From an uncultured Litorivicinus sp. (GTDB lineage Bacteria; Pseudomonadota; Gammaproteobacteria; Pseudomonadales; Litorivicinaceae), in assembly GCA_902541775.1 (NCBI GenBank), contig CACBSE010000008.1, positions 1 through 37,631 of the forward strand: 37,631 bases of DNA, read 5' to 3'. The notes under the pieces were generated by a model. The model saw only the letters and a program-made list of their open reading frames with translations. It did not search any database and had not been told where the DNA came from. Shown piece after piece: positions 28,917 through 34,202 of this stretch; position 1 is the first letter of the stretch; the number at the start of each line of letters is the position of its first letter. Both the position numbers and the translations under genes were made by a program.

Positions 28917-29903
28917 TTACGCAACTGCTGAGTCAGAAACTAGGATTTGCCTCTCAAACTCTCTCAACCGCTTGTATACGCTCAATAATTCAATAATTGT
29001 TGGCCAAGCTTTAAGTAAATATTGCATCGAGCCCTCGACTCTCCCAAATGCTCGTATGATCTGTTGCATTACACCCAACGTCACAACACCTGCCACGATG
29101 GCGGGACCTAATAATACGTAGGCGCTAAGGACATTTGCTTGCAAGTAGGCGATACGCCCAATGTTAAAGTACAAATAACGTAAATAGCTCAAGTAGTGTA
29201 TTGATCTTACATCTTCGAACAGTTCGTCAATCCGTTTCGGTCTAATCGTTTCATCATCTTCAGCGATAACTAGGATTTTTCGATATGCAGCCTCTTTTTT
29301 CTGGAGATCGTATTCTATTCCTACTAGCCTCAACACCCAACCTAGGAGAATTAAAAATAAAGTGCCACCTATACTCCAAACGATAGCCCCAGTGATCAAT
29401 CCGTAGGGCCAGTCGCCAAAGAAAAAAATAGGGATCCCCAATGATAAGCCAAAGAGTATCGGAACAAACTGCACCAGAACCATGATCGATTCGATCAAAG
29501 ATGTACCTAATTGTTCCATGATTCGTGAAAATTTAATCGTGTCTTCTTGGACTCTTTGAGCGGCGCCTTCAATATGTCGCGCCTGATCGTACACCGCGTG
29601 ATACCACTCCACCATGGCTTGTCTCCACCGAAAAAGGAAATGAGCGGTGAAATAGCTTACCGATACAGCGATGGCAACATAGATCCCAGCTAAATATATA
29701 AAGCTAAAGAGGCTTGCCCAGTATTCCTCGAGAGTTATAGCGTTCGGCGACGCTAATGCCTTTTGGATCATATCGTAAAATTCGCCGAACCACTCATTTA
29801 TCTCTACATCGATCATCACCTGTATCCACAGAGATGCTAAAATTAAACCCGAGCCAAGCCAGGCCCAAATTAACCATTTTCTAGTCGTAAAAAATCTAAA
29901 CAT
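28917..29903 (-). CDS. SbmA/BacA-family peptide transporter
   Basis: Inner-membrane protein of 328 residues, matching the SbmA/BacA family of proton-driven importers of peptide antibiotics. Key stretches are MFRFFTTRKW at the start, VEINEWFGEFYDMIQKAL, FLFRWRQAMVEWYHAVYDQA with the GAAQRVQEDTIKF motif, and the tail GRVEGSMQYLLKAWPTIIELLSVYKRL. E. coli SbmA is longer (about 406 residues), but shorter homologues exist. The ATG at 29903 follows an A-rich stretch without a strong site. An element before it, and its own start, recur in damaged form near 34.0-34.2 kb. Confidence 0.85.
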   Translation of the reverse strand: MFRFFTTRKWLIWAWLGSGLILASLWIQVMIDVEINEWFGEFYDMIQKALASPNAITLEEYWASLFSFIYLAGIYVAIAVSVSYFTAHFLFRWRQAMVEWYHAVYDQARHIEGAAQRVQEDTIKFSRIMEQLGTSLIESIMVLVQFVPILFGLSLGIPIFFFGDWPYGLITGAIVWSIGGTLFLILLGWVLRLVGIEYDLQKKEAAYRKILVIAEDDETIRPKRIDELFEDVRSIHYLSYLRYLYFNIGRIAYLQANVLSAYVLLGPAIVAGVVTLGVMQQIIRAFGRVEGSMQYLLKAWPTIIELLSVYKRLREFERQILVSDSAVA

Positions 29904-29945
29904 ATTTTTTAATCCGCGATTTCCAGGGTTTTACAATGCCTTGCA

Positions 29946-30116
29946 TTATGTCCTAGTGTATTCCGGATTCTTGCGCCAGTCGGGGTTTTTTCTCGTCCGT
30001 TGTCGAATAAAGGCGATCCGAGGATCATTTAGCGGCATGTAAAGGAGCATCACGATTGAGCCGAATGGTTTCCGAAACCTTCGCCCTGTCTCATCAATAG
30101 CAACAATGGTGAACTG
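29946..30116 (-). pseudogene. 3' fragment of a gene upstream of sbmA
   Basis: Reverse-strand frame of 56 codons with no start: FTIVAIDETGRRFRKPFGSI, YMPLNDPRIAFIRQ, and the end TRKNPDWRKNPEYTRT, stopping at 29946. The beginning (FTIVAIDETGR) resembles the end of hotdog-fold acyl-CoA thioesterases, but this is weak. The transposase remnant starts immediately before it, so the insertion probably removed the front of the gene. The last 40 bases recur in damaged form at 34159-34202. Confidence 0.5.
29952..29991 (-). repeat. Element copy A before sbmA
   Basis: On the reverse strand this reads AAAAAACCCC, GACTGGCGCAAGAATCCGG and AATACACTAGG, coding for the tail KNPDWRKNPEYTR. It ends 48 bases before the sbmA start. 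Copy B at 34159-34202 matches about 33 of 40 positions with one two-base gap. Confidence 0.7.
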
Positions 30117-30775
30117 TTAAGTGTCCGAAGGGGATATTTTTGATGGGTAAACTGACTAAGACTGCTAAGTGCGATGAGTTGGCGATTCGCCAGAAGCTTG
30201 GCAACCTCAACATGACCAGTGACGGACTTCAAGAATTTGTACTCTTAGCTTCAGTATATTTACGAAGAACTCTTGATGGGAGAGCCTTTTAGGCGAAGCG
30301 ATAGCTTGTTCGGATTTTTTGACGACCAGTTCAAGCAGGACCGAGCGTTCTTCGAACACATCATATGCCTTGAATGTATCGGCATGGTAGAAACAGTGGA
30401 GTCGAACTTTCTCTCTTAAAATAGGCACAAGCATTGCTGCAGTTGCGTTTGGGATGATTTTGGTATGGACATAATCATTACGTTCCAAGAGCCCAAACAC
30501 TTGTAGCAAACCCGCTGCATCGCGTCCCCCTATGCCCTTGCGCCTGCTGTCAAAATAACTCTCGTTAAATTCGATTGTATCGCTCATCAAGGACGGTTGA
30601 TCGCCGACAATTTCTTAGTGGCTACTCTTGCGAAGCTTATGAATAAAAGGGGTTTCCGGTATTGCGAATTACACCTGTCAATTCAGTCGCAGAACGCGCT
30701 GTTTAGCCTGTACCGAAGTACTTAATAAGCTCGATTTGAATACTTGTTTTGAGCCTTCTACGTCGACGAACCGTA
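30117..30775 (-). mobile_element. IS1595-family (ISXO2-like) transposase remnant
   Basis: Reverse-strand pieces rebuild an ISXO2-like transposase. Near 30775-30640: SIQIELIKYFGTG, a stop, then TARSATELTGVIRNTGNPFY, which is the amino-terminal zinc/helix region. From 30590: DTIEFNESYFDSRRKGIGG, AAGLLQVFGLLERNDYVHTK and HADTFKAYDVFEE, the DDE-type core. Further on, FWRIANSSHLA near 30190 recalls the INGIENFW end. The first catalytic Asp of the usual EVDESYFGG is Asn here, and there are several stops and shifts, so the element is dead. I could not identify the terminal inverted repeats. Confidence 0.78.
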
Positions 30776-30897
30776 ACCGAATGATGGCAATCGCCTTTTT
30801 ACCCTATCTATGTCAGCCCCTCTTTTAAAAGCCACTTATGTTTGAAATTTTAAATGTTTAGAGCTAGTTTTCGGTACAGGTTAGAGAGGAGTTGCAA

Positions 30898-31329
30898 GTG
30901 TCAGATTGGCTGTATCAGGTAAGGATTAGGGTTTCGGAAAGGTTGTCTGAAAGTTTAAGAAGTGGACGCCACACGGATTTGGCAAATAATCTAGATAGCA
31001 TATCCAACGATCATGGAATGTCTCTAGTATGTACCTTTGATGCGTTTAAAGGGTACTGTGACGAAGCCGAAGAAAACGGTGTCGAAGAGTATGCTTTGTA
31101 CGACTGGACTAAAGCGACAATCGAAAATCCAGAAAAAAAAGCAAAACATTTAAAGTCGTTTGCTTTTTACAAAGGTTTCGAGCAGGTGTACGAGAAGGAA
31201 TTGGCGCTGTCGTTGGAAGAAAAGCTCCTGGATTTAGGGCTAGGTGAGGACTTACTCGAGGTGAAGGTTATAGACTCTAATCCAGCTAACAATCCCCAGC
31301 CACCGTCATTCAATCAGCAAGGCGGCTAA
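30898..31329 (+). CDS. Hypothetical small cytoplasmic protein
   Basis: Protein of 143 residues with no recognised domain. GTG at 30898 is favoured because GAGGAG lies about six bases upstream; a TTG six bases earlier is possible. The chain is largely helical and charged (WLYQVRIRVSERLSESLRSG, EEYALYDWTKATIENPEKKA, YEKELALSLEEKLLDLGLGE) and ends in a Pro/Asn/Gln-rich tail. It has no signal peptide or membrane segment. It lies between the transposase remnant and the exported trypsin-like protease and could be a member of that block. I do not know its function. Confidence 0.6.
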   Translation: MSDWLYQVRIRVSERLSESLRSGRHTDLANNLDSISNDHGMSLVCTFDAFKGYCDEAEENGVEEYALYDWTKATIENPEKKAKHLKSFAFYKGFEQVYEKELALSLEEKLLDLGLGEDLLEVKVIDSNPANNPQPPSFNQQGG

Positions 31330-31345
31330 GAAAACCGATGAACAG

Positions 31346-31379
31346 CAGTTAAAATTCACCGTTACAGGCTGTTTAACTG
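31346..31379. repeat. Inverted repeat after the hypothetical gene
   Basis: CAGTTAAA and TTTAACTG form a perfect eight-base inverted repeat around an 18-base loop, 17 bases past the stop. No T run follows, so it may be an operator or a weak message-end hairpin. Confidence 0.4.
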
Positions 31380-31464
31380 TTGTATAGACAGGATGTCAGC
31401 AGGGCATAGTGTCATGTAGCACGAATACTCCACCCTATAATCACAGGACTTCAGCAGACGCAGC

Positions 31465-31480
31465 AAAAAGCGCGCTTTTT
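31465..31480. terminator. Symmetric A-tract/T-tract hairpin
   Basis: The 16-base palindrome AAAAAGCGCGCTTTTT can form a six-pair stem with loop CGCG and works the same on both strands. It stands between the hypothetical gene and the protease promoter region and could stop upstream transcription. TATAAA at about 31502 lies shortly after and may be the protease -10 box. Confidence 0.45.
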
Positions 31481-31535
31481 ATTCCACTGCCGAACCTACA
31501 GTATAAAATGGATGTATAACCAACGGAGAAATGGG

Positions 31536-32705
31536 ATGCAATCTTACATCGTGTTTAAAGGCTCTAAGCGTCTGGTTGACTCGAGCATAGCAAAATATTC
31601 AATCACTCCAATCTTGGTCACCCTAACAATAGTTGTGTCTTTGCAAAATAAATTGCAGGCAAAGACGGTATGCGATGATCAGGAAAAAGTCTGCACTTGG
31701 GAAAAAAGAATTGTGGGCATCAAAACGCCAACGATGACTGCTTCAGGTTTTTTATTAGACGATGGAACTTTGATAACAAACAAACACGTTGCCGAAGATC
31801 ATCCAGTTGTAAAGGTAAAACTCCCGTCAGGACAGATTACCACCGCAAAGCCATCACCTAATGACCATCCAGCGGACCTCGCGATACTTGTCATCCCTTC
31901 GTACGCGCCAACATTTCCGCAACAGATAAAAATACATCAAGGGAAAATCCAAAAGCTGAGAGTTATAGCATTCGATCAGGGACGGAATGGCACTAGAATC
32001 TATCCTGCTAGTACTTATGCTATTTACCCTGATTCGAAGAAATTTCCACAGGCACGTATTCACTCCGATGTGTTTGCTTTACCTGGAAACAGCGGTGGCG
32101 CAGTGGTAACTGAACTAGGTGAGTTAGTTGGAATATTGGCGTCAGGTGATGGAAACATTAATGAAATCATTCCGGCGCAGCACATTGCCGCTGTACAAAA
32201 TTCATCAGATGATTTGAAGCGAGAGGATTTTGTTGCCCAAGGAACAGCGATAAGAATGTGTGCAGATTTACTCCATGAATCAAACAAAATCGCAAAAAAT
32301 CCACCTGCGTCAGTAGTATCTGACTTGGAAACTGCATGCCTTCAATCGAAAAATAAGCAACTTTTCGATCAGGCTGGCCAGTTATTCGGGAAGTGGTGGA
32401 TGTTCTCGCTATCGGAAATGTTTCTTACCGAGAGTCTGAAACTTGATCCCAATAGTCCTAATACCTTGATGTCGTTGGCTGTCGCTTATCATCTCAATCG
32501 TGATTACATCAAGGAAAAGCCACTGCTTGAAAAATATCTTGAACTTAACCCGTCTGATCCGCAGGCTCTGCGATTGTCAGTCCAGGTGGCAGGTTTATTA
32601 AAAGATGACGCTTTAGCGGAAAAATCACTTGAACTTATGCGAGAGCATAACCCCAATGCTGTTGAATTTGCTCAAGAATTCCTCGACTCAAGCTTCGGCA
32701 ATTAA
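31536..32705 (+). CDS. Exported trypsin-like serine protease with TPR-like tail
   Basis: Protein of about 389 residues. A hydrophobic stretch near residues 22-40 (TPILVTLTIVVSLQ) exports or anchors it. The S1/HtrA-type catalytic domain follows, with His84 in TNKHVAED, Asp114 in PADLAIL and Ser186 in LPGNSGGAV. No PDZ domain follows. After about residue 260 the chain turns helical, and FLTESLKLDPNSPNTLMSL and LEKYLELNPSDPQALRLS look like TPR repeats. ATG at 31536 lies eight bases after GGAG; the longer frame from ATG 31512 has no site. It ends by overlapping the subtilisin-like gene of the other strand by four bases. Substrate unknown. Confidence 0.82.
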   Translation: MQSYIVFKGSKRLVDSSIAKYSITPILVTLTIVVSLQNKLQAKTVCDDQEKVCTWEKRIVGIKTPTMTASGFLLDDGTLITNKHVAEDHPVVKVKLPSGQITTAKPSPNDHPADLAILVIPSYAPTFPQQIKIHQGKIQKLRVIAFDQGRNGTRIYPASTYAIYPDSKKFPQARIHSDVFALPGNSGGAVVTELGELVGILASGDGNINEIIPAQHIAAVQNSSDDLKREDFVAQGTAIRMCADLLHESNKIAKNPPASVVSDLETACLQSKNKQLFDQAGQLFGKWWMFSLSEMFLTESLKLDPNSPNTLMSLAVAYHLNRDYIKEKPLLEKYLELNPSDPQALRLSVQVAGLLKDDALAEKSLELMREHNPNAVEFAQEFLDSSFGN

Positions 32706-34018
32706 AAACCAAAATCATCAGTCGGATCTGGGATCCAGCCAAGTTTGATCTTATTGGACGGTATCGCTCTATCTTGCAAAAATTTCTTGACCTCAACAGA
32801 TGTTGATTGAGGATTAGATTTAATGTACCGGCCTACTAAAGCAGCGACCCTTGGTACCGCATAACTGCTTCCGCTAGCGTATGTTTTGACGCCGCGGTGA
32901 TCAATTACAGGGATTCGTTCGGCTGGAACTACTAGGTCGACTGAGTCTCTTCCATAGTTCGATTGGGGACCAAGTAACCCAAACTTGTTACCTGACGAAA
33001 CTACTATCAGATTATCCAAATCAAAGGATGCAGGATACACTGCCTGCTTATCAATATCGATGCCATTGTTACCTGCCGACACTATAAAAATTGTCTGAGG
33101 CATATTCCTCGCTTTTGTTTCAAAACATAGCCACTCAGTCTTATTTTTTGAACCCATCGGCATTGCTACCACCCTTATATTGTGGGTTTCCACATGAGCT
33201 AACAGCTGTTCAAATTTGCAGAGGTCATCAGCTGGGAATCTGTAGACCGTCACCTTTTGGTTTTTTAGTTCACGAATTAGAACGCTAAATACAGTCGTAC
33301 CGTGATGTAAGGGAAAAAACGGATTTGATCTCGGATCCTTATCAAAAGGCCGCTGATCGTCGTCCCAGAAATCGTACCCAGTAATGTTTCCGTCGAGATC
33401 AGTAGCGATGAATGGATAAAGCTCTTGTAGCAAATAGTTAACACCTGTATCCACCAAAGCAATGATAGAACGATCATCAATCTGGGTGTCCTCATGGATG
33501 GTTTTTTTCGGGAACTCGGGATTTTGCGGTTCCGTGGAGCTCACTGCGAATGTTGACGCCTCTAAATTCTGTATTGAATCAACGTTTCCCTTTTCGTCAA
33601 AAACCAGTTTGCGAATCCGACCAATCTGGCAATCCGGGGAAAGCCTCAACTGGAGATATTTACGCCCTTGATCATCAGAAACTGTAATGATTGCTACGCG
33701 CCAGTTTGTTCTCGAAGGTTTGTAATTAATTGACAGCTCTGCTTCATCTTTTGGGCTGGCAAACTTGATTGATCGCTCTTTTTTTTCAAGATGCCATGAA
33801 GCGAGGTATGTGTCGGTCAGATTTGGTATTGATGAAGACTCACAAAACAGCTCTTCCCGTGTGCGTATTAAATCCAGAATTGGTTGCGAGCCCTCCACAA
33901 GGTGGGTCGCGCAAATAAGTGGTACTCCAATGCATAAACTCCGAAAGCATCTTTTATTCAATTTACCTCTTTTGCTTGACGCCACAAACTCGATCAAATT
34001 ATTCATTGATTTGTACAT
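32702..34018 (-). CDS. Exported subtilisin-like (S8) serine protease
   Basis: Protein of up to 438 residues. A hydrophobic stretch (CFRSLCIGVPLICATHLVEG) near residues 24-43 should export it, and a propeptide-like region runs to about 175. The catalytic domain has Asp190 in IIALVDTGVNY, His239 in HHGTTVFS, oxyanion Asn317 in SAGNNG and Ser385 in ASGSSYAVPRVAALV. The usual GTSMA is GSSYA. The start is unsure: ATG 34018 or 34006 lie inside the remnant of a second sbmA, and a TTG about 57 bases after 34018, preceded by AGAGG, is another option. The stop overlaps the trypsin-like protease stop. Confidence 0.85.
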   Translation of the reverse strand: MYKSMNNLIEFVASSKRGKLNKRCFRSLCIGVPLICATHLVEGSQPILDLIRTREELFCESSSIPNLTDTYLASWHLEKKERSIKFASPKDEAELSINYKPSRTNWRVAIITVSDDQGRKYLQLRLSPDCQIGRIRKLVFDEKGNVDSIQNLEASTFAVSSTEPQNPEFPKKTIHEDTQIDDRSIIALVDTGVNYLLQELYPFIATDLDGNITGYDFWDDDQRPFDKDPRSNPFFPLHHGTTVFSVLIRELKNQKVTVYRFPADDLCKFEQLLAHVETHNIRVVAMPMGSKNKTEWLCFETKARNMPQTIFIVSAGNNGIDIDKQAVYPASFDLDNLIVVSSGNKFGLLGPQSNYGRDSVDLVVPAERIPVIDHRGVKTYASGSSYAVPRVAALVGRYIKSNPQSTSVEVKKFLQDRAIPSNKIKLGWIPDPTDDFGF

Positions 34019-34112
34019 TTGGGTACCTGCTGCGCCACATCGCGATAGCGATGAGTAGGGTTATACCGAGCCTCCAAGGCCTCCATTTACGGTTGTAGAA
34101 GTACCTAAACAT
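33999..34112 (-). pseudogene. Second sbmA/bacA start, truncated
   Basis: ATG at 34112 opens MFRYFYNRKWRPWRLGITLL and IAIAMW, then YPNVQINE and a TAA where SbmA proteins have Trp. This parallels the intact copy (MFRFFTTRKW and VEINEWFG) in order and spacing. After the stop the same frame reads FDRV and then merges into the subtilisin-like gene. Only about the first 40 codons remain. Confidence 0.65.
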
Positions 34113-34158
34113 GTTTTGATCTTTTGTTCGCTGAGCTTTGGTAACGCGCTACTGTCAA

Positions 34159-34202
34159 CCTAGAGTGCATTCTGGATTCTTTTACCAGTTGGGCTTTTTT
34201 TT
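34159..34202 (-). repeat. Element copy B before the sbmA remnant
   Basis: On the reverse strand this reads AAAAAAAAGCCC, AACTGGTAAAAGAATCC and AGAATGCACTCTAGG, a diverged copy of the element before sbmA. Its frame gives KKKPNW, a stop, then KNPEC, against RKNPDWRKNPEY in copy A. It is 46 bases before the sbmA-remnant ATG, against 48 bases in the intact arrangement. Confidence 0.65.

Follow-up and report, generated by a model that had tools for sequence, protein, structure and literature searches.

The comparison across genomes strongly supports a functional link between two serine proteases encoded tail to tail in a 37,631-nucleotide contig stretch from an uncultured Litorivicinus sp. (the window), namely an HtrA-related enzyme with a TPR tail (gene 1, or S1-TPR) and a subtilase (gene 2, or S8). 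We regard it as an evenly balanced possibility that the pair forms a periplasmic two-gene protease module whose members act in one pathway. The comparative support covers the association of the two genes, their co-transfer, the purifying selection on them, and the folds and complete active sites of their products. Each protein comes from a known superfamily, while the partnership itself appears to be undescribed. Both HtrA proteases and subtilases have been studied in great depth, yet a stable genomic partnership between them was not found in the literature searched, where open PMC text held no prior description of an HtrA-subtilase pair, and neither TPR nor tetratricopeptide occurs in the text of a 2008 survey of prokaryotic serine proteases. 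The pair leads to the testable prediction that one enzyme controls the other or completes its action, and it provides a clear case of functionally linked genes that are held convergent and not as an operon. The pair and its surroundings comprise:

28917-29903, minus strand: intact type-A SbmA/BacA-like transporter, 328 aa (context, outside the module)
30207-30590, minus strand: truncated IS1595-type transposase, a dead insertion sequence (context)
30898-31329, plus strand: small ORF of 143 aa with a GTG start behind AGGAG (passenger, outside the module)
31512-32705, plus strand: gene 1, S1C (HtrA/DegS-type) serine protease with TPR, complete ORF, 397 aa
32702-34018, minus strand: gene 2, S8 subtilase, complete ORF, 438 aa
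34001-34164, minus strand: 5' end of a type-B sbmA, cut off at the junction with the block (from DNA alignment)

The protein encoded by gene 1 consists of a hydrophobic N-terminal helix (the export segment), a Trypsin_2 domain (Pfam, E=1.2e-13) and a C-terminal TPR tail, for which TPR_17 also scores above its gathering score. The catalytic triad H92/D122/S194 has His, Asp and Ser in HtrA order within a trypsin fold. Among the S1 relatives the triad is readable and intact for His in 47/48, Asp in 47/48 and Ser in 48/48 sequences, the missing His belonging to one truncated sequence and the missing Asp to one unread base. The AF2 model (mean pLDDT 82.8) shows the trypsin fold at residues ~67-221 followed by helical repeats at 224-395, and its top Foldseek matches are DegS, DegP and HtrA2. 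Neither Pfam nor the AF2 model shows a PDZ domain, and TPR is found in its place. The NCBIfam degP/degS score is 43 bits against a cut-off of 416, and gene 1 is classed as S1C-like, not as DegP/DegS. The likelier start is the ATG at 31536 (codon 9), which lies behind GGAG. At two loci (L051 and L052, in G107 and G106) the gene 1 profile match runs across a TAA stop, which may reflect differing annotated starts or N-termini, or decay.

Gene 2 encodes an export segment, an all-beta N-terminal region (~76-164), a disordered linker (166-181) that carries an invariant Asn-Pro, and the catalytic domain (Pfam Peptidase_S8, E=3.7e-15). The active site D190/H239/N317/S385 comprises the Asp, His, Ser triad and the oxyanion Asn in subtilase motifs, and this tetrad is intact in 55/55 sequences. 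The AF2 model (mean pLDDT 70.0) has a subtilase fold, with the all-beta N-terminal domain modelled at moderate confidence (pLDDT ~60-77); no Pfam I9 match indicating an I9-type inhibitory propeptide was found in gene 2. Fold matches range from E ~1e-12 to 4e-16, with 15-23% identity to solved structures. While gene 2 shares the complete D/H/N/S site and the fold with known S8A subtilases (deseasin MCP-01, thermitase-type, LicP/EpiP/NisP), it forms a subfamily of its own by its GYDFWDxDxxPFD and YRFPA motifs, four invariant Cys (C59, C130, C267, C298) and the all-beta N-terminal region. Gene 2 probably starts natively at the TTG at 33961 (codon 20). Start codons of S8 relatives align close to this codon, and codons 1-6 of the gene as called are sbmA-derived DNA.

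Both proteases have hydrophobic N-terminal segments and are predicted to be exported, as judged by sequence and by model helices. The paired invariant cysteines in both proteins would fit a non-cytoplasmic location, and we infer from sequence and models that both enzymes work in the periplasm. The preliminary description, made from the window's letters, had proposed an exported and catalytically complete pair of a trypsin-like protease with a TPR-like tail and a subtilisin-like protease ending on a four-base overlap, and the ORFs, Pfam matches and catalytic residues agree with this.

The two genes are convergent and share four nucleotides, TTAA at 32702-32705, as overlapping stop codons. On its own a 4-nt overlap is no evidence for a link; the evidence is its recurrence. 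In relatives the genes overlap by 4, 8, 11 or 13 nt, gaps of 1-25 nt occur in SAR116-order genomes, and the pair is also kept at gaps of 388 and 2397 nt. At one locus (L087 5875-8273, in G252) the convergent S8 and HtrA-S1-TPR genes are separated by a gene for a methyl-accepting chemotaxis protein. The tail-to-tail overlap leaves no space for a terminator between the protease genes, and it may tie the mRNA levels of both genes through antisense pairing. Convergent order is unusual for co-regulated genes, and this counts against reading the pair as a shared module.

A scan for gene 1 across one genome per GTDB species gave 13 loci, mostly labelled SAR116 Alphaproteobacteria, with one gammaproteobacterial MAG that is the G018 record. 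Two other species of the window's genus (G005 and G018) carry gene 1 at ~60%. Gene 2 was adjacent and tail to tail at 15/15 first-collected pair loci, a count in which one locus (G018) appears twice. At least five unrelated neighbourhoods surround the pair, and only the two proteases are common to them. Within the SAR116 family around G098 (58 genomes), the full S1-TPR is found in 19 genomes and S8 in the same 19, all convergent, and the only singles are G131, where S8 runs off the contig, and G137, which holds a gene scar. The latter (L095 8700-8974) is a ~270-nt deletion scar between conserved SDR and MaoC genes, at which both protease genes were lost and a fragment of gene 1 remains. Across the SAR116 order, 46 of the 136 genomes have this subtilase, at 47 S8 loci, by profile searches on stop-to-stop frames. 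Two of these loci are cut by contig ends and were set aside, and at all of the evaluable ones (45/45) a trypsin-fold (S1C) protease is adjacent. The arrangement is convergent with S1-TPR at 38 loci (38 genomes) and divergent from an HtrA-like gene at the other 7.

Co-occurrence extends to the wider Alphaproteobacteria. In a sample of 385 genomes, S1-TPR was found in 10, the S8 subfamily in 17 and both in 8, compared with ~0.44 expected by chance. Two of these eight genomes (G384 and G522) hold S1-TPR and S8 on different contigs; the co-occurrence is therefore more than mere linkage. The association is not universal, as the S8 subfamily was found without an adjacent S1 in G462, G287, G181, G411 and G313 and at L012 and L014, and S1-TPR without a detected S8 in G340 and G491 of the Alphaproteobacteria sample. 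These lone cases indicate that neither enzyme is strictly dependent on the other everywhere. L012 and L014 belong to two species of the window's genus (G021 and G007), in which a related subtilase (33%) lacks an S1 partner and immediately follows an operon resembling that of NAD-dependent formate dehydrogenase. In another member of the genus (G015, L013 6138-8910), a further S8 of the subfamily stands head to head with a Trypsin_2 protease. Scans of viral contigs with both protease profiles turned up one short S8 stretch at 30% and nothing related to S1-TPR, and plasmids gave only remote S8 (25-30%) and ordinary HtrA matches.

These distributions bear on whether the two genes are chance neighbours held together only by the cost of separating overlapping 3' ends. 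Overlapping ends do limit separation, but the pair survives at gaps of 1-25 nt and even at 388 and 2397 nt, elsewhere S8 is linked to an HtrA-like gene in divergent or co-directional order, and both genes are retained when unlinked in G384 and G522 and were both lost in G137. We therefore find such an origin hardly credible. The preliminary description had itself named the absence of the pair from all other genomes as the sign of chance neighbours. The genome search instead recovered the convergent pair in 38 SAR116-order genomes and two further species of the genus, in unrelated neighbourhoods.

The relatives of the pair also connect it to HtrA proteases of the familiar type. Several Alphaproteobacteria encode a longer protein in which S1-TPR makes up the C-terminal half and an HtrA protease with PDZ the N-terminal half, and such HtrA-PDZ/S1-TPR fusions are convergent to S8 in five genomes. 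At four loci (L088 and L170-L172) there are three separate genes, with the HtrA-like gene followed by S8 on one strand and S1-TPR convergent on the other. The catalytic triad of the HtrA-like partners is intact in 18/18, and PDZ occurs in module relatives only in the separate or fused HtrA partner. The gene fusion, the three layouts and the unlinked co-occurrence in G384 and G522 all favour a functional link. Gene 1 shares the protease fold and the order of catalytic motifs with DegS/DegP/HtrA (S1C), and the module relatives include true HtrA-PDZ proteins. However, DegS and DegP bear PDZ and show no coupling to a subtilase, whereas gene 1 has TPR instead of PDZ and is coupled to one.

Both protease genes are under purifying selection according to sequence comparison, with Nei-Gojobori dN/dS in close pairs of 0.14-0.20 for S1 and 0.19-0.36 for S8. 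Distances among the S1 sequences mirror those among the S8 sequences, with r=0.92 between the two matrices, a value reached in 0 of 2000 permutations of a test that does not correct for shared ancestry. In the S1 tree, the three gammaproteobacterial sequences share a clade with part of the SAR116 sequences, from which the remaining SAR116 sequences are excluded (99/99); transfer between the two classes would give this pattern. The S8 tree recovers the same gammaproteobacterial group, but the placement of this group is weakly supported. Collectively, the comparison indicates that the pair has been inherited and transferred as a unit across ocean bacteria.

In a one-pathway module, gene 1 would be an HtrA/DegS-type S1C protease in which TPR replaces PDZ. 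The HtrA-type enzyme would act as the recognition or trigger protease and would read a substrate or an envelope signal through TPR, or through PDZ in the fused forms. The subtilase would be the executor, restrained by its N-terminal region or linker, although an inhibitory role for these parts is a guess. One protease might cut or release the other, or both might cleave one substrate in turn. No substrate, regulator or receptor gene recurs beside the pair. More tentatively, the HtrA-derived S1C-TPR protease may gate a subtilase zymogen in a periplasmic cascade, with its overlapping tail-to-tail genes passed between SAR116 Alphaproteobacteria and a genus of marine Gammaproteobacteria, a possibility that we consider doubtful in this specific form. 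The DegS-RseP cascades offer an analogy only, in that an HtrA-type protease is there combined with a second protease outside the cytoplasm. The second protease of DegS-RseP is a site-2 metalloprotease, whereas here it is a subtilase, and no gene for an anti-sigma factor or intramembrane protease recurs next to it; the pair is not a member of that group.

Alternatively, the genes might encode two ordinary secreted digestive proteases, side by side with no regulatory tie, that break down environmental or periplasmic protein for nutrition. Both enzymes have complete active sites and are predicted to be exported, marine heterotrophs use protein, and the solved S8 structure nearest to gene 2 by sequence and fold, deseasin MCP-01, is a marine secreted protease. 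However, strict coupling to an HtrA-type protease, a class of quality-control and sensor enzymes, including HtrA-PDZ fusions, is atypical of digestive enzymes. In addition, deseasin-type C-terminal extensions are absent and no peptide-uptake genes recur beside the pair, and we judge this explanation rather unlikely.

That the two proteases mature a natural product of peptide or protein nature, such as a bacteriocin or lanthipeptide, has very little probability in our assessment. This role is suggested by Foldseek, which puts LicP and EpiP just behind deseasin, and by weak NCBIfam matches of gene 2 to QhpE and mycosin, but the likeness to LicP and EpiP is that of the general subtilase fold. The lanthipeptide leader proteases LicP, EpiP and NisP are encoded with a precursor and lanthipeptide enzymes, whereas none of these lie beside the pair copies read, and no precursor, modification or dedicated export genes recur. 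At one SAR116 locus (L018), the pair sits between MaoC and SDR genes with spacings of -11 and +3 nt, which leaves no room for a precursor.

The window copy lies in an AT-richer block, with GC of 0.43-0.44 at 29001-34000 compared with ~0.48 on both sides. In the window's genus, sbmA occupies the position next to the pgi upstream gene and exists as two alternating alleles with ~50% identical proteins. Type A is found in G013, G016 and G005, at 88-89% to the intact copy in the window, and type B in G009 (the window's nearest relative), G010, G001 and G002. The window contains an intact type A with the start of a type B 4 kb away. The stretch 34001-34164 can be aligned to the beginning of sbmA and the DNA before it in G010 and G002, and the upstream DNA of this truncated type-B gene is now in front of the S8 gene. 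The simplest history, going by these alignments, would be that type-B sbmA was replaced or interrupted by a block that carried type-A sbmA, the IS1595 remnant, a phage-like gene and the two proteases. The pair and sbmA are on separate contigs in G005 (C6 and C48, respectively), so sbmA is no partner of the pair, and no sbmA was seen beside it at the SAR116 pair loci read. The preliminary description of the surroundings was thus partly borne out. The AT-richer block agrees with the GC figures, the dead insertion sequence is present as the IS1595 transposase remnant at 30207-30590, and the sbmA remnant is real as the 5' piece at 34001-34164, while the sbmA at 28917-29903 is full length. The suggested link to peptide import does not hold, as the proximity of sbmA is peculiar to this site of insertion.

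The same block could suggest a module for interbacterial competition or anti-phage defence, since the window copy lies in mobile DNA with an IS remnant and a phage-like gene, the distribution of the pair is patchy and horizontally moving, and PADLOC RT-Protease models match the trypsin domain. The match is confined to that domain, however; unlike the RT-Protease (DRT-type) systems, the pair has no reverse transcriptase domain or neighbour, and both proteins carry export segments and are predicted to leave the cytoplasm. None of the copies has a reverse transcriptase, immunity or defence gene next to it, and in SAR116 most copies occupy a stable metabolic neighbourhood common to many species. 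Such a role therefore has little probability. Of the earlier proposal of a system processing peptides outside the cytoplasm, the processing itself is plausible, but its competition or defence side found no counterpart, as PADLOC gave no system-level match and no immunity, toxin or defence genes recur.

The small helical protein encoded at 30898-31329 had been grouped with the proteases as a possible partner. As a third component it was rejected, as a search of the other pair loci found it absent from every one and it resembles a jumbo-phage protein. It has no family match and no relative in 274 gammaproteobacterial genomes. Four IMG/VR contigs of 66-323 kb (L153-L156) encode a protein with 39% identity to it over ~135 residues, directly downstream of a gene with a PHROG dehydrogenase match. 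The small protein shares its ending, DSNPANNPQPPS, with this uncharacterised marine jumbo-phage protein, whose gene immediately follows a GMP reductase-like gene.
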